A stretch of DNA of 64,000 nucleotides from Dehalococcoidia bacterium (lineage in GTDB: Bacteria; Chloroflexota; Dehalococcoidia; Dehalococcoidales; Fen-1064): the NCBI GenBank assembly GCA_011171075.1, contig DUFD01000046.1, forward strand, positions 1 through 64,000, in the 5' to 3' direction. Below, piece after piece: positions 38,851 to 63,597 of this stretch (the first letter of the stretch is position 1; the number at the start of each line of letters is the position of its first letter). Under the pieces are notes generated by a model. It made no database searches. It saw nothing but the letters and a program-made list of their open reading frames with translations, and was not told the DNA's origin. The translations under genes and the position numbers were made by a program.

Positions 38851-38879
38851 TTGACAATAATCACTCTCTATGTTATGTT
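38851..38879 (+). promoter_or_regulatory. Promoter of leuS and its leader
   Basis: TTGACA 38851-38856, 17-base spacer, TATGTT 38874-38879. Six bases follow before the leader-peptide ATG at 38886, so +1 and the start codon coincide. Confidence 0.8.
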
Positions 38880-38885
38880 ACCATC

Positions 38886-38927
38886 ATGAACAGGCAAGAA
38901 CTTATACTCCTTCTTAGCAGTCCTTAA
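38886..38927 (+). CDS. Leucine-rich leader peptide of leuS, predicted leaderless
   Basis: Thirteen residues, MNRQELILLLSSP, with four Leu and one Ile in five consecutive codons (38901-38915). The ATG is at the predicted transcription start, so no ribosome site exists. It is followed by an antiterminator/terminator module and leuS. Ribosome stalling on Leu codons when charged tRNA-Leu is low would raise leuS transcription. Confidence 0.8.
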   Translation: MNRQELILLLSSP

Positions 38928-38982
38928 CCGGTAAGTGGGTTCGTCTCTTACAGGGGACCGTCCCACGGGACGGTCTTTTTTT
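38928..38982 (+). promoter_or_regulatory. leuS attenuator (antiterminator and terminator)
   Basis: Terminator: GACCGTCCC (38956-38964) pairs with GGGACGGTC (38967-38975), followed by seven T. Competing antiterminator: GTGGG (38935-38939) pairs with CCCAC (38962-38966), and CCG (38928-38930) with CGG (38971-38973). A ribosome at the leader stop codon (38925-38927) would cover GTGGG and let the terminator form; one stalled at the Leu codons would leave it free. A local hairpin GTAAG/CTTAC (38931-38935 with 38947-38951) is also possible. Confidence 0.8.
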
Positions 38983-39019: not shown

Positions 39020-41809
39020 ATGGCAGCGAAGTACATTCCAAACGAAATCGAGAAAAAGTGGCAGGAGAAATGGGCGGAGACCGGCCTATACCGCGTCACC
39101 GAGGACAGCCCGAAACCCAAGTACTACGCCCTCACCATGTTTCCCTATACCTCGGGCGACCTCCACATCGGTCACTGGTACGCTATGGCCCCTTCCGATG
39201 TTCAGGCCAGATTTAAGCGGATGCAGGGATACAACGTACTCCACCCGATGGGCTTCGATGCCTTTGGCCTTAACGCTGAGAACGCTGCCATCAGGCAGGG
39301 TATTCACCCTTACACCTGGACGATGCAGAACATCGAGAATATGCGACGCCAGCTCAAGAGCATCGGGGCTATTTACGACTGGGACCGGGAGGTTATCACC
39401 TGCCTGCCCGAATACTACAAGTGGACACAGTGGTTCTTCCTCAAGCTGTACGAGCACGACCTTGCCTATCGCCAGAAAGCACCGGTCAACTGGTGTCCGA
39501 GCTGCCAGACGGTGCTCGCCAACGAGCAGGTAGTGGACGGCTGCTGTGAACGTTGCGATACGGCTGTCATCCACCGCGACCTTGAACAGTGGTTCTTCCG
39601 GATTACGAAATACGCTGATGAGCTCATGCAGTACGAAGGAATTGACTGGCCGGAGCGGATAAAGATAATGCAGCGTAACTGGGTGGGCCGCAGCACTGGC
39701 ACCGAGATTTCCTTTGCCCTCGACCACCCTGGCGTCGATGAAAAGGAAATCAGGGTCTTCACCACCCGCCCCGATACCACCTTCGGCGTGACCTTCATGG
39801 TACTCGCCCCGGAACACCCGCTGGTGCCCAAACTAACTGTACCTGAGAAAAAGGCGGAAGTCGAGGCCTACATTGAGAGGTCGCGCCGGCAGACCGAGAT
39901 TGAGCGCCTTTCTACTGAGAAGGAGAAGGACGGTGTTTTCACTGGTGCCTATGTGACGAACCGGCTCAATGGGGAGAAGGTACCCATCTGGATTGCCGAC
40001 TACGTGCTGCTGAGCTACGGTACCGGCGCCGTCATGGCCGTCCCGGCCCACGACGAACGTGACTTTGCCTTTGCCCTGAAATACGGACTGCCCGTAATTC
40101 ACGTGATTGACCGCACTGATGGTATCGCCAAGAGTTATGCTATGGCGGGGACGATGCGTCCAGGCCTCAAGCAATCCTTGGAGGATGCCAATATCAGCTT
40201 TACCGAAACGAGTGACGGCGGTCTTTACATCACACTTCGTGGTGACGACCAGATAGACAACTACATTGAGATGGTCAGGGTACATCTACTCCCCGGTTGC
40301 TGGAGCGAGATTGTCGGCTCACGCTGGCTCTTCATCTTCGCCAGCGAAGAGGGTACGACCGTAGTACCTTTTGATTCCATCGAGGCAGAGCGGTCGATTC
40401 TGGCAAAATGCAAGGAGCTCGAGCCAAACGTTCGCAGCAGGCGTACCGTAATGGAGATGTTGTGGGGTCTGGAGTTTTACCGAGATATGCTGTTTCATAC
40501 CGAATACGGGACGATGATTCACTCCGGCCCGCTGACGGGCACACCTGGTGACCAGGCAATCAGCACGGTGACCAAATGGATGGAACAGCAAGGTTTCGGT
40601 CATGCTACCGTCAGCTATCGCCTGCGCGACTGGCTGATTTCGCGCCAGCGTTACTGGGGCGCGCCGATACCGATGATATATTGTGATAAATGTGGCATCG
40701 TGCCTGTCCTAGAGGAAGACCTGCCCGTGCTGCTGCCAGAAGACGCTGAGTTCAAACCCACCGGTGAGTCACCGCTGGCCTACCATGAAGGATTCGTTAA
40801 CACCACCTGCCCCAAGTGCTCCAGTCCGGCCAGACGCGAGACGGACACCATGGACACATTCATGTGCTCGTCATGGTACTTCCTACGCTACTGTAGCCCG
40901 CACTACTCGCAGGCCGCCTTCGACCCCGAAAAGGTGAAGTACTGGATGCCGGTAGACCTCTACACCGGCGGCGCCGAACACGCCGTGATGCACCTGCTAT
41001 ATGTCCGCTTCTTCGTCAAAGCGCTGAGAGATATGGGAATAGCCGATTATAATGAACCGTGTGTCCGACTGTATAACCAGGGACACATCATCGCCGAGCA
41101 GCGAAAAATGAGCAAGTCGCGGGGTAATGTAATTACTCCTGATGAGTACGTTGCCGACATGGGCGTAGACACCGTACGTGTTTACTTTATGTTCCTCGGT
41201 CCCTGGGAGCAGGGAGGCGAGTGGGATGACAGCGGTATCAGCGGGGTCAGACGATGGCTAAACCGTGTCTGGAATCTGGTGCTGGAGGAATACACTCCCA
41301 GAGCAGAGAACGATGGAGTACGCACCGAGTTACGGCGGACCACTCACCAGACCATCAGGAAGGTGACCGGTGATATTGAGAGACTGCGTTTCAATACCAT
41401 GATTGCCGCCCTGATGGAATTCACCAACTACCTCGCTAGAATTAAAGAGGCTGGCAGTGTCAGCCAGGCCGATTGGAAAGAGGTGGTGGACATTCTGCTG
41501 CTACTCCTGGCACCGTCAACTCCCCATATCACGGAAGAGCTCTGGGAGCAGACCGGACACAACTACAGCATCCACAGCCAGGACTGGCCACAGTGGGACG
41601 AGGCGCTGGCTAAAGATGAAGAGGTCACGCTGGTGGTCCAGGTAAACGGCAGGCTGCGCGACCGCATCACTGTCCCTATAAGTATCACCGAGGATGAAGC
41701 CAAACAACTGGCACTGGAGAGCCCCAAGTCCAAACCTCACATTGAGGGCAAGCAACTGGTGAGGGCGATATATGTCCCCCATAAGCTGGTGAATTTGGTG
41801 GTGAAATGA
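39020..41809 (+). CDS. leuS: Leucyl-tRNA synthetase
   Basis: 929 residues, longer than the about 860 of E. coli. HIGH motif as FPYTSGDLHIGHWYAM, KMSKS as QRKMSKSRGNVITPDEY, editing-domain TTRPDTTFGV, zinc-like CPSCQTVL and CERC, and the LRDWLISRQRYWGAP signature. About 115 residues near positions 370-487 (with RVHLLPGCWSEIVGSRWLF) are inserted where most bacterial LeuRS proceed directly from the editing domain to the catalytic core. Charges tRNA-Leu. Controlled by the leucine leader upstream. Confidence 0.97.
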   Translation: MAAKYIPNEIEKKWQEKWAETGLYRVTEDSPKPKYYALTMFPYTSGDLHIGHWYAMAPSDVQARFKRMQGYNVLHPMGFDAFGLNAENAAIRQGIHPYTWTMQNIENMRRQLKSIGAIYDWDREVITCLPEYYKWTQWFFLKLYEHDLAYRQKAPVNWCPSCQTVLANEQVVDGCCERCDTAVIHRDLEQWFFRITKYADELMQYEGIDWPERIKIMQRNWVGRSTGTEISFALDHPGVDEKEIRVFTTRPDTTFGVTFMVLAPEHPLVPKLTVPEKKAEVEAYIERSRRQTEIERLSTEKEKDGVFTGAYVTNRLNGEKVPIWIADYVLLSYGTGAVMAVPAHDERDFAFALKYGLPVIHVIDRTDGIAKSYAMAGTMRPGLKQSLEDANISFTETSDGGLYITLRGDDQIDNYIEMVRVHLLPGCWSEIVGSRWLFIFASEEGTTVVPFDSIEAERSILAKCKELEPNVRSRRTVMEMLWGLEFYRDMLFHTEYGTMIHSGPLTGTPGDQAISTVTKWMEQQGFGHATVSYRLRDWLISRQRYWGAPIPMIYCDKCGIVPVLEEDLPVLLPEDAEFKPTGESPLAYHEGFVNTTCPKCSSPARRETDTMDTFMCSSWYFLRYCSPHYSQAAFDPEKVKYWMPVDLYTGGAEHAVMHLLYVRFFVKALRDMGIADYNEPCVRLYNQGHIIAEQRKMSKSRGNVITPDEYVADMGVDTVRVYFMFLGPWEQGGEWDDSGISGVRRWLNRVWNLVLEEYTPRAENDGVRTELRRTTHQTIRKVTGDIERLRFNTMIAALMEFTNYLARIKEAGSVSQADWKEVVDILLLLLAPSTPHITEELWEQTGHNYSIHSQDWPQWDEALAKDEEVTLVVQVNGRLRDRITVPISITEDEAKQLALESPKSKPHIEGKQLVRAIYVPHKLVNLVVK

Positions 41810-55404: not shown

Positions 55405-55490
55405 TAGTGGAGGCCCCATCCGCTATATCCCCTTCCCCAGTGGGGAAGGGGAAGATTTTTTAAGAGGGGCTGCGCCCCTCTTAAACTCCC
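55405..55490. repeat. Dispersed palindromic repeat, family A, full copy
   Basis: GTGGAGGCCCCATCCGCTAT, CCCCTTCCCCAGTGGGGAAG, T-rich spacer, AAGAGGGGCTGCGCCCCTCT, AAACTCCC. It lies in the gene-free stretch 55379-55696 between rpiB and the ilv promoter. Confidence 0.85.
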
Positions 55491-55569
55491 TTTCAAATAA
55501 TCATATTGTCACATAAATCGGCTCTCTTTAAGGTGAGAACGACCTGTGCCCGAAAACTGCCCTCCACAC

Positions 55570-55635
55570 CGTTTCGGGGTGTCCAGAGGGGTGTAACCCC
55601 TTTGGAACGGGGGTTCAAGGGGGACACCCCCTTGG
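55570..55635. repeat. Dispersed palindromic repeat, family B
   Basis: GTTTCGGGGTGTCCAGAGGG, GTGTAACCCCTTTGG, then CAAGGGGG...CCCCCTTGG. Near-copy of 35736-35798, again placed after a full family A repeat. Confidence 0.8.
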
Positions 55636-55696
55636 AAATATACGAACTGTGTTATTCGCGGATGGTAAGACAGTCCTAAAATTATTGTCAGAACAG

Positions 55697-55725
55697 TTGA
55701 CAATAAACAAAAACTGTGATATTTT
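55697..55725 (+). promoter_or_regulatory. Promoter of the ilv-leu operon
   Basis: TTGACA 55697-55702, 17-base spacer, TATTTT 55720-55725. Exactly six bases separate it from the leader-peptide ATG at 55732, so the start codon coincides with the predicted +1, as upstream of leuS. Confidence 0.82.
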
Positions 55726-55731
55726 CATATC

Positions 55732-55785
55732 ATGAGCACGCAGTATGCAACCTTAGTACTTATCGTTATCAGCCGTTACCGGTGA
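55732..55785 (+). CDS. Branched-chain leader peptide of ilv-leu, predicted leaderless
   Basis: Seventeen residues, MSTQYATLVLIVISRYR, with the unbroken run Leu-Val-Leu-Ile-Val-Ile (codons 8-13, 55753-55770), all three amino acids made by the downstream operon. There is no room for a ribosome site between the promoter and ATG. It stops at TGA 55783-55785, immediately before the antiterminator sequence. Confidence 0.85.
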   Translation: MSTQYATLVLIVISRYR

Positions 55786-55833
55786 GTGGGTTCGTCTCGC
55801 ACGGGGAGCCGTCCCACGGGGACGGCTTTTTTT
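55779..55833 (+). promoter_or_regulatory. ilv-leu attenuator (antiterminator and terminator)
   Basis: Terminator: GCCGTCCC (55808-55815) pairs with GGGACGGC (55819-55826), followed by seven T. Antiterminator: GTGGG (55786-55790) pairs with CCCAC (55813-55817), 22 bases apart exactly as before leuS, plus CCG (55779-55781) with CGG (55823-55825). A ribosome reaching the stop codon would mask GTGGG; one stalled at the Leu/Val/Ile codons would not. Confidence 0.83.
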
Positions 55834-55862: not shown

Positions 55863-57524
55863 ATGAAAAGTGATGCGGTCAAGAAGGGTATTGAAAGGGC
55901 AGCGCACCGTTCGCTGCTGCATGCGGTCGGGGTCAGCCTGAGCGACCTCGATAAGCCATTCGTGGGTATCATCAACAGCTTCAGCGAGATTGTCCCCGGC
56001 CACATCAACCTGCGGAGTATCGCCGAAGCGGTCAAGCAGGGTGTAGCCAGGGGTGGTGGCGTCTCCTTCGAGGTCAACACCATTGCCGTCTGTGATGGCA
56101 TCGCCATGGGCCACGCCGGCATGAAGTACAGCCTGCCCAGCCGGGAGCTGATAGCCGACTCCGCGGAGACGGTTGCCGAAGCCCATGCCTTCGATGCCCT
56201 TGTCTTCATCCCCAACTGTGACAAGGTAGTGCCCGGCATGCTCATGGCAGCCATGAGGCTCAACGTGCCGTCTATCTTCATCAGCGGCGGCCCGATGCTC
56301 GCGGGACACATTGGCACCGAGGGCGGTCGTAAGTTTGACGTCATATCCCTTTTCGAGGCAGCCGGCAGGGTTACGGCAGGTGAGATGAGCGAAGAGGAAC
56401 TGGCCAGGATGGAAGAACTGACCTGTCCCGGCTGCGGAAGCTGTGCCGGCATGTTCACCGCCAACACGATGAATTGCCTCACCGAGGTGCTGGGGATGGG
56501 TTTGCCCGGAAACGGTACCATTCCGGCCGTCGACGCCAGACGGATGATACTGGCCAGAAAAGCCGGCGAGGAGGTTATGCGACTCCTGGCCTCTGGTACG
56601 TGTCCACGGGATATTGTCACCGCGGCCGCGATAGACAACGCCCTCACGGTTGATATGGCCCTGGGTGGCAGCACTAACTCGGTGCTGCACCTGATGGCCA
56701 TCGCCAATGAGGCAGGGATTAGCTTCCCGTTGACCAAGGTGAACGAACTCTGCCAGAGTACCCCGCACATCTGCCTGCTCAGTCCCGCCGGCGAAAACCG
56801 CATCGAAGACCTGGATAGGGCGGGTGGTATTCCCGCGGTGATGAAAGAGGTCGGTGACCTCCTCAATCTGGAACTACCCACCGTAACCGGGAAATCGGTA
56901 GGGGAGAACATTAAAAATAGCCAGGTGCTTGACAGAGAAGTAATCCACTCCAGGGACAATGCCTATTCCGCCACTGGTGGTATCGCCATCCTCTTCGGCA
57001 ACCTGGCGCCTGACGGTGCCATTGTCAAGAAGGCAGCAGTCGCCCCGGAGATGATGGTACACCAGGGACCGGCCAGGGTGTTCGACTCCGAGGAGGAAGC
57101 CACTACCGCTATCATGAAAAAAGATATGAAGAAAGGCGATGTAGTCGTTATCCGGAACGAAGGCCCCAGGGGTGGCCCGGGTATGCGGGAGATGCTGACA
57201 CCCACCGCCCTGCTGAGCGGTATGGGCATGGACAAGGATGTAGCCCTCATCACCGACGGGCGTTTCTCGGGCGGTTCCCGTGGTGCTGCCATCGGCCATG
57301 TCTCGCCGGAAGCAGCCAGTCGCGGACCGATTGCCGCCCTCCGAGACGGGGACATCATCAAGATAGATATCCCGGATTGCAAGCTCGAGATAGAGCTCAG
57401 CGACGAAGAAATTTCCCGGCGGCTGGCAGAACTCAGCGAGTTCGAACCGAAAATAAAAACAGGCTATCTGAGCCGATACATAGAGAAGGTGACTTCGGCT
57501 AGTACCGGAGCCGTGTTCAGTTAG
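55863..57524 (+). CDS. ilvD: Dihydroxy-acid dehydratase
   Basis: 553 residues. Fe-S cysteines in [11 protein letters not shown] and [30 protein letters not shown] and the catalytic-region [17 protein letters not shown] signature are present. It makes 2-oxo acids for Val, Leu and Ile. First structural gene after the attenuator; ilvB follows by 13 bases. Confidence 0.97.
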
Positions 57525-57537
57525 GAGGAGATGCAAT

Positions 57538-59235
57538 ATGAAGATGACTGGTGCCCAGATGATGCTGGATGGTCTAGTCAAGGAAGGGGTCGAGGTTACC
57601 TTCGGCATCCAGGGCGGTAAGGTTATCCCCCTATTCGACACCATGCCCCAGTTCCCGCAGATACATCACGTGCTGACACGGCATGAGCAGGGAGCTGCCC
57701 ACGCCGCTGAAGGCTACGCCCGCGCCACGGGAAAGGTCGGGGTATGCATCGCAACCTCCGGACCCGGAGCCACCAACCTGGTTACCGGTATCGCCGATGC
57801 TTTTCTCGACTCGGTACCGATGGTGGCGATAACCGGTCAGGTCAACCGACCCGACATCGGCAAGGACGCCTTCCAGGAGGTAGACATCACCGGCATTACC
57901 CTGCCGATTACCAAGCATAATTACCTAGTGCTGGATACTCCTTCAATGCCACGGATTGTCAGAGAGGCTTTCTATCTGGCACGTACCGGTCGACCCGGCC
58001 CGGTACTGATTGACGTGCCCGGCGATGTCTTCATGGAGGAGACAGAGTTCCACTATCCCAAGGAGTTCGACCTGCCCAGCTACAAACCGACACTCAGGGG
58101 GCACCCGGCACAGATTAATAAGGCCGCCAAGGTAATCAATGATGCCCGGCAACCTGTTATCCTGGCCGGGCGGGGTGTCATCGTCTCCGGAGCGTACGCC
58201 GAACTGAAAGAGCTTGCCGAGAAAGCGCAGATACCGGTAATAACAACCCTGCTGGGCATCAGCGCCATACCGGAGAGTCATGTCCTCTCCTACGGGTGGC
58301 TGGGTATGCACGGCATGGTCCACGCCAACATGGCCACCGACGCCGCCGACACGATAATCGCCATCGGTATGCGCTTCGATGACCGGGCCACTGCCAAAGT
58401 AAGCGCTTTCAATACCCGCGCCCGCATAGTCCATATCGACATTGACCCGGCGGAGATTGGCAAGAACATAAAGGTAGACGTTCCGATTGTCGGTGACGTC
58501 AAGACCGTGCTTACACAACTAAATAAAGTGGTAGAAACCAGCCAGCATATCGACTGGATAAGCCAACTGGATGAGTGGCGCCGGACACACCCGTCACTCA
58601 ATATCCGCGACAGCGAGTCCGTACTGCCGCAGTATGTCGTCCGGCAGATTTACGAGGCCACCAAGGGGGAGGCCACCATTGTAACCGGCGTGGGACAGCA
58701 CCAGATGTGGGCGGCGCAGTATTATCACTACGACCACCCCAACTCCCTCATCACGTCAGGTGGTCTGGGCACGATGGGCTTCGGGCTGCCCGCGGCGATA
58801 GGTGCGCAGGTTGGCCGTCCCGAAGCTATAGTCTGGTGCCTCGATGGTGACGGCAGCTTCCAGATGACAATACAGGAGCTGGCCACAATCCAGCAGGAGA
58901 GACTGCCACTCAAGATTGCCATCCTCAATAATGGTTTCCTGGGAATGGTCAGGCAATGGCAGGAGCTGTTCTTCGGCAAGCGCTATGTGGCCACGCCGTT
59001 AAGCGGCCCGGACTTCGTCAAGGTGGCCGAAGCCTATGGCATCCCGGGAACAATGGCAAAACGCAGAGAAGATGTTATTCCGGCTATCGAGCAGGCGCTG
59101 AGTGAACCGGGGCCGTTCTTAATCGACTTCCGCATCGAGCCGGAAGAGAATGTCTATCCCATGGTTAAGCTCGGTGGTAGCCTGGTAGAGCTACTGGAAG
59201 GTGAAGACGTAAAGAAAGGGGTGGTAAAATCATGA
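57538..59235 (+). CDS. ilvB: Acetolactate synthase, large subunit
   Basis: 565 residues. ThDP-activating Glu in LTRHEQGAAHAAEGYARA; IPVITTLLG; ThDP/Mg site GDGSFQM...NNGFLGMVRQWQ. It condenses pyruvate with pyruvate or 2-oxobutyrate. Its stop overlaps the ilvH start by 4 bases. Confidence 0.97.
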   Translation: MKMTGAQMMLDGLVKEGVEVTFGIQGGKVIPLFDTMPQFPQIHHVLTRHEQGAAHAAEGYARATGKVGVCIATSGPGATNLVTGIADAFLDSVPMVAITGQVNRPDIGKDAFQEVDITGITLPITKHNYLVLDTPSMPRIVREAFYLARTGRPGPVLIDVPGDVFMEETEFHYPKEFDLPSYKPTLRGHPAQINKAAKVINDARQPVILAGRGVIVSGAYAELKELAEKAQIPVITTLLGISAIPESHVLSYGWLGMHGMVHANMATDAADTIIAIGMRFDDRATAKVSAFNTRARIVHIDIDPAEIGKNIKVDVPIVGDVKTVLTQLNKVVETSQHIDWISQLDEWRRTHPSLNIRDSESVLPQYVVRQIYEATKGEATIVTGVGQHQMWAAQYYHYDHPNSLITSGGLGTMGFGLPAAIGAQVGRPEAIVWCLDGDGSFQMTIQELATIQQERLPLKIAILNNGFLGMVRQWQELFFGKRYVATPLSGPDFVKVAEAYGIPGTMAKRREDVIPAIEQALSEPGPFLIDFRIEPEENVYPMVKLGGSLVELLEGEDVKKGVVKS

Positions 59236-59780
59236 CCGGAAACAAGCATACGCTGGTTGCCCTCGTCGAGGACAGACCCGGGGTACTGAACCGGATGGCC
59301 AGTCTATGTCGGCGGCGAGGCTTCAACATCGAGAGCATTGCCGTAGGACACAGCGAAACACCGCGCCTTTCGCGCATGACCATCGTCGTCGACGGTACCA
59401 ACGCCATGATTGAGCAGCTGCGAAAGCAGCTGGACAAGCTGGTGGTTACCATGAAGGTATCGGACATCACCTCGGATAATATCGTTGTCCGTGAACTGGC
59501 GCTTATTAAGGTTAAAGCCAATTCCGAGACCCGGAGCGAGATAATACAGATTGTGGATATATTCCGCGCGGATATCGTCGACGTGGCCGAAGAATCGGTA
59601 ACCGTCGAGGTCACCGGAGACGAAGATAAGATAGATTCACTTCTCAGTCTGCTCCGTGGATTCGGTATTAAGGAGTTATCCAGGACAGGACGAATTGCTA
59701 TGACCCGTGGAGGCACCAGTCTTCTCGGAGAGGACAAAGATAAAACTGGAGGGAGAAGACAAAAGAAGGCAGCATCCTGA
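59232..59780 (+). CDS. ilvH: Acetolactate synthase, regulatory small subunit
   Basis: 182 residues. N-terminal ACT domain HTLVALVEDRPGVLNRMASL with GFNIESIAVGHSE, then the second ACT-like domain (LALIKVKAN, FRADIVDVAEESVTVEVTG). It carries Val feedback inhibition and stimulates IlvB. Translationally coupled to ilvB. Confidence 0.96.
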   Translation: MTGNKHTLVALVEDRPGVLNRMASLCRRRGFNIESIAVGHSETPRLSRMTIVVDGTNAMIEQLRKQLDKLVVTMKVSDITSDNIVVRELALIKVKANSETRSEIIQIVDIFRADIVDVAEESVTVEVTGDEDKIDSLLSLLRGFGIKELSRTGRIAMTRGGTSLLGEDKDKTGGRRQKKAAS

Positions 59781-59886: not shown

Positions 59887-60831
59887 ATGTTCCGTAAAAT
59901 GCTGGTTTTGCTTGATGGCTCCGAGCTTTCTGAGGTAGTCTTCCCCTTCGCCAAGGAGCTCGCTGCCAGACTAAATCTGGACGTGACTATGCTGCAGGTC
60001 TATGGTGATATCGGACGTAACTTCGTACCAGTACACAAGGCCTACATCGAGCGTGCCGCCGAGACAATAAAGAGTCAGATAGCGGATGTCCAGGAGAGAC
60101 TCGGTATCCCACCGCAGGAAAAACAGGCGGAAGTCCGGGGAGAACTAGCTGACGGTCATTATGCTGATGAGATACTGAGCTACGCTGAGAGGAACGATAT
60201 CGACCTTATTCTAATGGCCAGCCACGGGCGTTCGGGGATTCGGCGCTGGCGCATGGGGAGCGTTGCTGACAAGGTGCTAAGGGCTGCGAAGGTACCGGTA
60301 CTGTTTATTCGAGCCGGTGCTGAGGACGCCACCCCATACGACAAGTGGCCAACAAAATCAATAGTAGTCCCCCTGGATGGTTCGGAAAGAGCGGAATCAG
60401 TGCTTCCCCACGTTATAGCGCTGGCCAAGCAACGCACCACCGAGCCGATAATCGTAAACCTTATCAGGATTTGCGATCCACCGGTAGCTCCGTCCTACTA
60501 TTCTCCGGAGCTTTCCGGGGTACCCCTTAACTGGGGAGAATTCATGGAACAAGAGATGGACCGCTGTAAACAGAACGCCAGTGACTACCTTGAGAATATA
60601 GCCAAACAGCTCGATGACCAGGGTATTAAGGCAGAGTCCACGGTGCTTGTGGGTCAGGCCGCCGATGAAATAATAGAATATGTCAGCAAGAACCCGTACA
60701 GCATCGTCGTCATGGCGACTCACGGGCGCACCGGGTTGAGGCGGCTCGTCTTCGGCAGCGTCACCGAGAGTGTCCTGCACGCAGTCTCTAACCCGATACT
60801 ACTGACCAAGCCGGAACAAGCTGGCTCGTAG
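59887..60831 (+). CDS. Tandem universal stress protein (two UspA domains)
   Basis: 314 residues in two UspA halves. Half 1 (1-145) starts [19 protein letters not shown] and has [20 protein letters not shown]; half 2 (about 155-312) starts [19 protein letters not shown] and ends [18 protein letters not shown], the G-2X-G-9X-G(S/T) ATP-binding motif. It sits between ilvH and ilvC, interrupting an otherwise standard ilv order. Confidence 0.93.
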
Positions 60832-60854: not shown

Positions 60855-61850
60855 ATGGCAAAGATATACTATGATAACGATTGTGATTTGAAACTGCTCG
60901 ACGGGAAAGTAGTTGGTATCATCGGCTACGGCAGCCAGGGGCATGCCCAGGCCCAGAACCTGAGAGATAGCGGCTGCCAGGTAATCGTCGCTGAGGCTGA
61001 GGGAAGCCCGGGCTGGAATAATGCCAGGGAAGCCGGCTTTAAAGTAACAAAAGCCGCCGAAGTAGCCAGAGAAGCCGATATTATCTCAATTCTGGTCCCT
61101 GATGAACTGCACGGCAGGATTTACAACGAGTCAGTCCTGCCCGGACTGGATGCCGGTAATACCCTGTTATTCTCACATGGATTCAGCATTCACTTCGGGC
61201 AGGTATTACCACCGTCGGACGTAAACGTTATCATGATAGCGCCCAAGTGCCCCGTCCATATGCTAAGACAGCTATACACTGAGGAGGTCGGGCCTCCGGC
61301 GATTGTAGCCGTGCACCAGGATGCCACCGATAATGCTAAGGATATTGCCCTGGCCTACGCCAAGGGCATCGGTTGCAGCCGGGCCGGCGTCATCGAGACT
61401 ACCTTTGCTGAGGAGACCGAGACCGACCTCTTCGGGGAGCAGACCGTGCTCTGCGGTGGTATTACCGGCCTTATAAAAGCAGGCTTTGAGACGCTGGTAG
61501 AAGCTGGCTATCAACCCGAGATAGCCTATTTTGAAATCCTTCACGAGCTAAAGTTGATTATCGACCTTATCTACCAGGGTGGCCTCAGCTATATGCGGTA
61601 CTCCGTCAGCGATACCGCCGAGTACGGCGACTATATAAGCGGGCCAAGAATCATTGACGAGATGGTAAAGCAGGAGATGGCCGAGGTGCTGGCCGAAATC
61701 CAGGACGGTACCTTTGCCAAGGAGTGGATACTGGAAAATCAGGCCGGTCGACCTGTCTTCAATGCGCTGAGACGCATCGAGGCAGAGCACCCCATCGAGG
61801 TGGTGGGGGCTGAGCTACGCCAGATGATGCCCTGGCTCAAGCAAGGCTAG
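60855..61850 (+). CDS. ilvC: Ketol-acid reductoisomerase, class I
   Basis: 331 residues. [33 protein letters not shown], catalytic [18 protein letters not shown] and [14 protein letters not shown]. The cofactor loop after strand beta-2 reads A-E-A-E-G-S-P-G-W (46-54); the usual Arg and Ser residues that bind the NADPH 2'-phosphate are absent and two Glu are present, suggesting NADH use. Otherwise a normal class I enzyme. Confidence 0.96.
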
Positions 61851-62064: not shown

Positions 62065-62076
62065 CAGGAGGATGTC

Positions 62077-63597
62077 ATGGAAAAGGTAATTATCTTCGAT
62101 ACCACTCTCCGGGACGGTGAGCAGGCAGCCGGTGGTTCAATGAACGTCTCGGAGAAACTGGAAATAGCCAGACAACTGGAAAAGCTCGGCGTGGATGTCA
62201 TTGAGGCCGGCTTTCCGGTAACATCGCCGGGTGATTTCGAGGCGGTACGCCTCATTGCGGAAGAGGTGCGCACCCCTGTAATCTGCGTGCTCACCCACGC
62301 CAATCTCGAAGCGGTGGACCAGAGCTGGGAGGCGGTCAAGGGAGCGGCACACCCGTGCATCCATATCGTTCTGTCGTCTTCAGACATTCACCTCTTCTAC
62401 CAGCTGAGGAAGAGCCGTGAGGAAATCCTGAAGATGTCCTGCGATACGGTAGCCAGGGCGAGGAAATACTGCGATAACGTTGAGTTCTCCGCAATGGACG
62501 CCAGTCGTACCGACCCGGCATACATCTATCAGATACTTGAAGCGGTAATAGACGCCGGGGCCACCACTGTGAACATCCCTGATACGGTGGGCTACGCCAT
62601 GCCCGACGAGTTTGGCGGCCTTATCGACAACGTCTTCAAGAACGTGCCAAATATCAACAAGGCAATCGTCAGTGTACACTGCCATAATGACCTGGGCCTG
62701 GCCGTAGCCAACAGCCTGGAGGCCATCAAGCGGGGGGCCAGACAGGTGGAAGGCACCATTAACGGCATCGGTGAAAGGGCGGGCAATGCCTCGCTCGAGG
62801 AGATCGTCATGGCCATCAAAACCCGACAGGACTTTTACGACCTCTATACCGATATCGACACAACCCAGATATACAAGACGAGCCGGCTGGTCAGCGAGTT
62901 GACCGGTACCCCGGTCCAGCCCAACAAGGCTATTGTCGGTGCCAACGCCTTCCGACATTCGTCGGGTCTCCACGTTGACGGTGTCATCAAGATGCGGACG
63001 ACCTTTGAGATAATGGACCCCAAATCGGTAGGGGTACCCTCCAGCAGTCTGGTGCTGGGCAAGACCAGCGGACGGCATGCCTTCAGGGAACACCTGGCCG
63101 AACTTGGTTACAGCCTGTCCGAGGAAAATTTCAGTCGTGCCTTTACCGCCTTTAAAGAGCTGGCCGATAAGAAGAAGAACGTCACCGATAAGGACATTGA
63201 ATCGATAGTTGCTGAGGAACAGCGTACCGTCTCCGAGGTCTACCACCTCGACCGCCTACAGGTGACCTGTGGCGACCGGGGGATACCTACTGCCTCTGTC
63301 CAGCTTGTAGCACCTGAAGGCAAGGTTCACTCCGAGGCTGCTATCGGCACCGGGCCGGTGGATGCAGTCTGCAAGGCAATCGACAAGATAGTGGCTGTAC
63401 CATGCAAGCTCACCGAGTTCACGGTGAAGTCTGTCACCGAGGGGATTGACGCCATCGGTGAGGTGCTGATAAGGGTAGAAAGTGAGGGCCTGACCTATAC
63501 AGGTCGCGGTGCGGATACTGACATTATCGTTGCCAGCGCCAAGGCCTATATCAACGCCCTTAACCGGCTGCTGTCCGATAGGAAAACTATTTCATAA
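62077..63597 (+). CDS. leuA: 2-isopropylmalate synthase
   Basis: 506 residues from the ATG at 62077 (AGGAGG 5 bases upstream); the frame opens at 62047 but those residues fall in the hairpin. DTTLRDGEQAAGGSMN, metal-binding SVHCHNDLGLAVANSLEA, TINGIGERAGNASLEE, and a C-terminal regulatory domain (about 395-500) for Leu feedback. First committed leucine step. Confidence 0.96.
   Translation: MEKVIIFDTTLRDGEQAAGGSMNVSEKLEIARQLEKLGVDVIEAGFPVTSPGDFEAVRLIAEEVRTPVICVLTHANLEAVDQSWEAVKGAAHPCIHIVLSSSDIHLFYQLRKSREEILKMSCDTVARARKYCDNVEFSAMDASRTDPAYIYQILEAVIDAGATTVNIPDTVGYAMPDEFGGLIDNVFKNVPNINKAIVSVHCHNDLGLAVANSLEAIKRGARQVEGTINGIGERAGNASLEEIVMAIKTRQDFYDLYTDIDTTQIYKTSRLVSELTGTPVQPNKAIVGANAFRHSSGLHVDGVIKMRTTFEIMDPKSVGVPSSSLVLGKTSGRHAFREHLAELGYSLSEENFSRAFTAFKELADKKKNVTDKDIESIVAEEQRTVSEVYHLDRLQVTCGDRGIPTASVQLVAPEGKVHSEAAIGTGPVDAVCKAIDKIVAVPCKLTEFTVKSVTEGIDAIGEVLIRVESEGLTYTGRGADTDIIVASAKAYINALNRLLSDRKTIS

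Follow-up and report, generated by a model that had tools for sequence, protein, structure and literature searches.

The ilvD leader in the window (the whole 64,000-nt stretch of DNA analyzed here, from the 2.14-Mb, 53-contig genome of an uncultured member of Dehalococcoidales, Chloroflexota) very likely controls the ilvD-ilvB-ilvN-usp-ilvC-leuA operon by ribosome-mediated transcription attenuation, and its leader peptide is probably leaderless. The promoter spacing, the run of branched-chain codons and its conservation, the match between codons and downstream genes, and the terminator could all be read directly from the sequences.

The ilvD leader and its relatives

All features of the locus lie on the forward strand. 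The -35 hexamer TTGACA (55697-55702), which almost all 50 leaders described below share, is separated by a 17-nt spacer from the -10 hexamer TATTTT (55720-55725). A TG extension precedes the latter at 55717-55718, and both TG and the TA...T pattern were kept in relatives. In a promoter scan of 1.5 kb this was the sole 10/12 match, and no competing promoter of equal strength was present in the stretch scanned; sites scoring at least 9/12 numbered three, versus 0.8 expected in shuffles. Six bases (CATATC) separate TATTTT from the ATG at 55732, which opens a 17-aa reading frame, MSTQYATLVLIVISRYR (55732-55785, with the stop codon TGA at 55783-55785). It contains the codons TTA GTA CTT ATC GTT ATC, encoding LVLIVI (55753-55770), and this sequence confirmed the original prediction of a 17-aa peptide with six consecutive Leu, Val or Ile codons ahead of an ilv-leu operon. 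An intrinsic terminator, consisting of a GC-rich hairpin and a T run ending at 55833 (55803-55833), is positioned between the leader reading frame and the first gene. Upstream of the leader, the region following rpiB (55428-55640) holds several G- and C-rich inverted repeats, possibly a terminator and repeat elements.

The genes that follow the terminator were assigned by NCBIfam matches above cut-off: ilvD, the first regulated gene (55863-57524, TIGR00110), ilvB (57538-59235, TIGR00118), ilvN (59232-59780, TIGR00119), ilvC (60855-61850, TIGR00465) and leuA (62074-63597, TIGR00973). The reading frame between ilvN and ilvC (59887-60831) matched no NCBIfam model at the threshold applied and resembles a two-domain universal stress protein (usp).

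We gathered ilvD upstream regions from named genomes as well as across the family, order and class. This comparison, which the original prediction had put forward as its own test, yielded 32 distinct ilvD leaders in Dehalococcoidales, each with a promoter, a Leu/Val/Ile-rich reading frame and a terminator, and the branched-chain codon run was kept in all 32. Peptides from relatives include MSTQYVTLVLIVTNYFR, MNRYNLVLALIVISGYQ, MNSLTFSLVLIVTYLSQ, MNEQNVTLVLIVMKQSP and MNCNYAILVLVTYT. Because orthologous ilvD leaders keep the codon run, promoter and terminator, the arrangement is, judged from these sequences, beyond what chance would give. The same promoter was also seen upstream of ilvD at 11 loci in other Dehalococcoidia (L025, L026, L035, L036, L044, L046, L050, L054, L065, L068 and L097), where a CCGTCC terminator follows it after about 35-45 nt and no branched-chain codon run is present.

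In each of the 32 ilvD leaders, 6, 7, 8, 9 or 10 nt separate the -10 hexamer from the ATG; for L028 we counted the first ATG (gap 9) and took the ATG at gap 21 as internal. The claim that the ATG lies exactly six bases after the -10 box thus held within the window's genus and gave way to a range of 6-10 nt across relatives. A normal discriminator spans 6-8 nt. A gap of 6-10 nt would therefore leave about 0-3 nt untranslated, which could not hold a Shine-Dalgarno site. From this promoter spacing the leader peptide is probably leaderless, as originally predicted, and it is very unlikely that the ATG is preceded by an untranslated stretch able to accommodate a ribosome site. Among ordinary genes of the window, a leaderless-type promoter was found for 1 of 53, a frequency not above that at control distances, and within the window leaderlessness therefore looks special to the leaders.

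Sister leaders at leuS and valS

A covariance model built from the ilvD leaders (R1) matched a second place in the window, at 38886-38981 on the forward strand. Here a promoter of the form TTGACA-17-TATGTT (38851-38879), also found by pattern search, is followed by the Leu-rich peptide MNRQELILLLSSP (38886-38927), whose ATG again lies six bases past the -10 box. The word "again" in the original prediction fits this second leader. Downstream, a GTGGG strand and a terminator (GACCGUCCCACGGGACGGUC plus a U run) occupy 38935-38980; this terminator has an A-U pair in place of one G-C pair of the ilvD version. The gene that would be controlled is leuS (39020-41809, TIGR00396 above cut-off).

In relatives, the model matched further leuS leaders and five valS leaders, bringing the distinct leaders to 32 at ilvD, 13 at leuS and 5 at valS (n=50), every one followed by a terminator. 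A pattern search found about 2 places per family genome, versus about 0.3 for a reversed control. A further covariance model (R2) revealed no attenuator kind in the family besides those at ilvD, leuS and valS, and no such leader was found at valS of the window's own genome. The weak class-wide R1 matches outside the order that we inspected were T-boxes or ordinary terminators.

The composition of the peptides followed the downstream gene. The ilvD peptides mix Leu, Val and Ile, the 13 leuS peptides contain 2-4 Leu and 0-1 Val, and four of the five valS peptides contain 4 Val and 0-1 Leu (MTINPVVVVM, MSTKLVVVVTY, MNTTVVVVTK and MKRTVVVVTI). None of 20000 label permutations was as extreme, a figure that serves as a guide only since leaders of related species are non-independent. 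We regard this codon-to-gene match as the strongest evidence for an attenuator that reads codons.

The choice among synonymous codons was also uneven. In the leuS leaders, nearly every Leu codon is CUU or CUC and CUG accounts for 0 of 42, versus a CUG share of 46% among Leu codons in nine window genes; CUU and GUU are abundant in the ilvD leaders. Such a bias suggests that particular isoacceptors are sensed, although the counts are non-independent through shared ancestry.

The -10 to ATG gap of 6-10 nt was found in 13 of 13 leuS leaders, 2 of 5 valS leaders and 47 of 50 leaders overall. The other three valS leaders (L141, L145 and L171) have a gap of 19-21 nt and are not leaderless, so leaderlessness is not obligatory for the module. 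We are nearly evenly divided about a tentative account of these families, in which a single ancestral leaderless module of promoter, leader reading frame, GUGGG antiterminator and terminator would have been copied within Dehalococcoidales. Retuning solely by exchange of codons in the reading frame would then have produced Leu/Val/Ile, Leu and Val versions at ilvD, leuS and valS, and the leuS version may read one Leu isoacceptor because CUG is avoided. The set forms a natural series in which one RNA switch would be read with three codon sets, and closely related valS copies offer either a leaderless or a short-leader start.

The predicted switch and alternative explanations

The switch itself was modeled by RNA folding. 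In the window's ilvD leader, the putative antiterminator strand GUGGG (strand 2, 55786-55790) lies directly 3' of the stop codon, as in most long-peptide ilvD leaders. Its predicted partner CCCAC (strand 3, 55813-55817) is located within the terminator, in its ascending arm and loop, and the helix is predicted to be extended by an inner helix of the GUCUC/GRGGC type. When folding was begun at strand 2 (RNAfold), the GUGG.../...CCAC outer helix was predicted in all 50 leaders. In most long-peptide leaders, the predicted antiterminator would exclude the terminator and could be blocked by a ribosome that has reached the stop codon.

We folded the RNA downstream of a ribosome placed at defined positions. 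A ribosome at the last regulatory codon left the terminator arm sequestered in 46 of 50 leaders, at a mean energy of -14.4 kcal/mol. Moving the ribosome to the stop codon brought this mean to -6.8 kcal/mol; 30 of 50 leaders still paired at least 4 arm bases upstream, in part through weak local GGG/CCC pairing. Antiterminator energies were only slightly below those of dinucleotide shuffles (mean z -0.7). When 8-14 nt separate the stop codon from GUGGG, a ribosome of standard footprint would cover that strand only in part. Such displaced stops occur in the valS leaders and in some of the ilvD and leuS leaders, the window's leuS leader among them. The window's ilvD leader and its near relatives give the clearest case of the modeled switch.

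The terminator and GUGGG hardly vary among the ilvD leaders, and RNAalifold therefore found no two-sided covariation there. The antiterminator is thus supported chiefly by the folds bounded by a ribosome and by a few compensatory variants, namely two-sided pair changes at positions 1, 2 and 5 of the outer helix, in segments that were structure-selected. The RNAalifold consensus also contained a weak candidate protector hairpin, in which the regulatory codons form strand 1, UACUUAUC (55757-55764), and pair with GGUGAGUG (55781-55788). Its variation was mostly G-U, with no two-sided changes.

The proposed mechanism would operate as follows. Transcription starting at the ATG, or within about 3 bases of it, would produce a nascent RNA that opens with the leader reading frame, and translation would begin by leaderless initiation. 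When charged Leu-, Val- or Ile-tRNA is scarce, the ribosome would stall in the LVLIVI run, leaving GUGGG free to pair with CCCAC, together with the inner helix, and transcription would go on. When the Leu, Val and Ile tRNAs are all charged, the ribosome would reach the stop codon and cover GUGGG, so that the terminator could form and transcription would end. Equipped with Leu codons, the same module would control leuS in the window's genome, and a version with Val codons would do so for valS in some relatives.

If the attenuator were real and transcription began further upstream, the peptide would instead follow a short untranslated leader that lacks any clear ribosome site. The three valS leaders with a 19-21 nt gap indicate that the module tolerates a short leader, and L020, L021 and L022 have in-frame starts further upstream. 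However, those starts are not conserved, the promoter is the most conserved upstream feature, and the 6-10 nt gap holds in every ilvD and leuS leader. Since the window stretch also lacks an equally strong competing promoter, we consider an upstream start unlikely. It is much less probable still that the terminator works independently of the peptide, with a protein or small molecule binding the leader RNA in a riboswitch-like manner and the codon run being incidental. Some relatives do keep the promoter and terminator before ilvD with about 40 nt between them and no codon run, as such a mechanism would allow. But where the peptide is present its reading frame is kept and its composition tracks the downstream gene, be it ilvD, leuS or valS, and no Rfam family, T-box included, matched the locus. 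None of the Rfam leader families reached threshold there, and the best sub-threshold matches were unrelated.

Control of the operon by a T-box or another tRNA-sensing leader has a precedent close by, as other Dehalococcoidia carry T-boxes upstream of ilvD (L058, L075, L079 and L089). The window's own genome carries two T-boxes, one on contig 42 (L223, 2039-2304), adjoining an ileS-like reading frame, and another on contig 47 (18157-18444). Yet the window contains no T-box at the Rfam gathering threshold, and a leader of about 100 nt is too short for the 219-position T-box model. With T-box sequence and structure both absent, T-box control of this operon is refuted, and tRNA-sensing leaders as a group deserve next to no credence here. 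Because the T-box near the ileS-like gene coexists with the peptide leaders, peptide attenuation and T-boxes appear to divide the branched-chain genes within one genome.

Comparison with known systems

The nearest parallels come from other taxa. In Corynebacterium glutamicum, transcription of ilvBNC starts one nucleotide from the leader start codon (PMC11857589). Its attenuator (IlvL MTIIRLVVVTARRLP, ilvB-II motif) likewise combines a 15-aa leader rich in Leu, Val and Ile with an antiterminator/terminator switch ahead of a branched-chain operon (PMC11857589, PMC10272879). It differs in belonging to Actinobacteria, in preceding ilvB, in its leader of about 290 nt and in occurring once per genome, whereas the Dehalococcoidales leader is about 130 nt long, precedes ilvD and has sister copies at leuS and valS. 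RNA-seq of Streptomyces lividans TK24 revealed a leaderless ilvL before ilvBHC (MRTRILVLGKRVG) and a leaderless leuL before leuS (MRAVRLLLSEPR) (PMC8079986). These also are leaderless leader peptides before branched-chain genes and leuS, but in another phylum; in Dehalococcoidales, the leaders at ilvD, leuS and valS share the promoter and a recognizable 3' half (strands 2-4). Attenuators of the same kinds, Leu-rich before leuS and branched-chain before ilvB, were predicted in other taxa, namely the Actinobacteria Streptomyces, Corynebacterium and Mycobacterium, in a paper that does not use the term "leaderless" (PMC1262725).

In Sinorhizobium meliloti, the trpL leader RNA opens with the ATG of a 14-aa reading frame (peTrpL) and contains a terminator/antiterminator switch (PMC7298713). 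Both traits resemble the arrangement proposed here. The S. meliloti system responds to tryptophan, however, and both its peptide and its RNA have further roles in trans; nothing in the present case points to such roles. T-box leaders (RF00230) control the same genes, ilvD and ileS, in related Dehalococcoidia, but they sense uncharged tRNA directly without a leader peptide and are absent at the ilvD locus.

The original prediction had set a leaderless peptide against classical attenuators, which begin with a peptide dependent on a ribosome site. This contrast is fair for enteric bacteria, but the novelty it implied does not stand, as leaderless leaders have already been reported for the C. glutamicum, S. 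lividans and S. meliloti attenuators. A genome-wide survey estimated about 5% leaderless genes in Chloroflexi where any were detected (PMC3160421). The freely readable literature that we searched contained no attenuators of this kind in Dehalococcoidia or Chloroflexota. What seems to be new is therefore the occurrence in Chloroflexota and the matching of one module to three genes. Leaderless leader-peptide attenuation, reported in Actinobacteria and Sinorhizobium, would thereby extend to Chloroflexota. Together with the T-boxes at ileS and ilvD, it would mean that a single class has arrived at two solutions for sensing tRNA charge in one pathway. Many short reading frames of this type would escape gene annotation.
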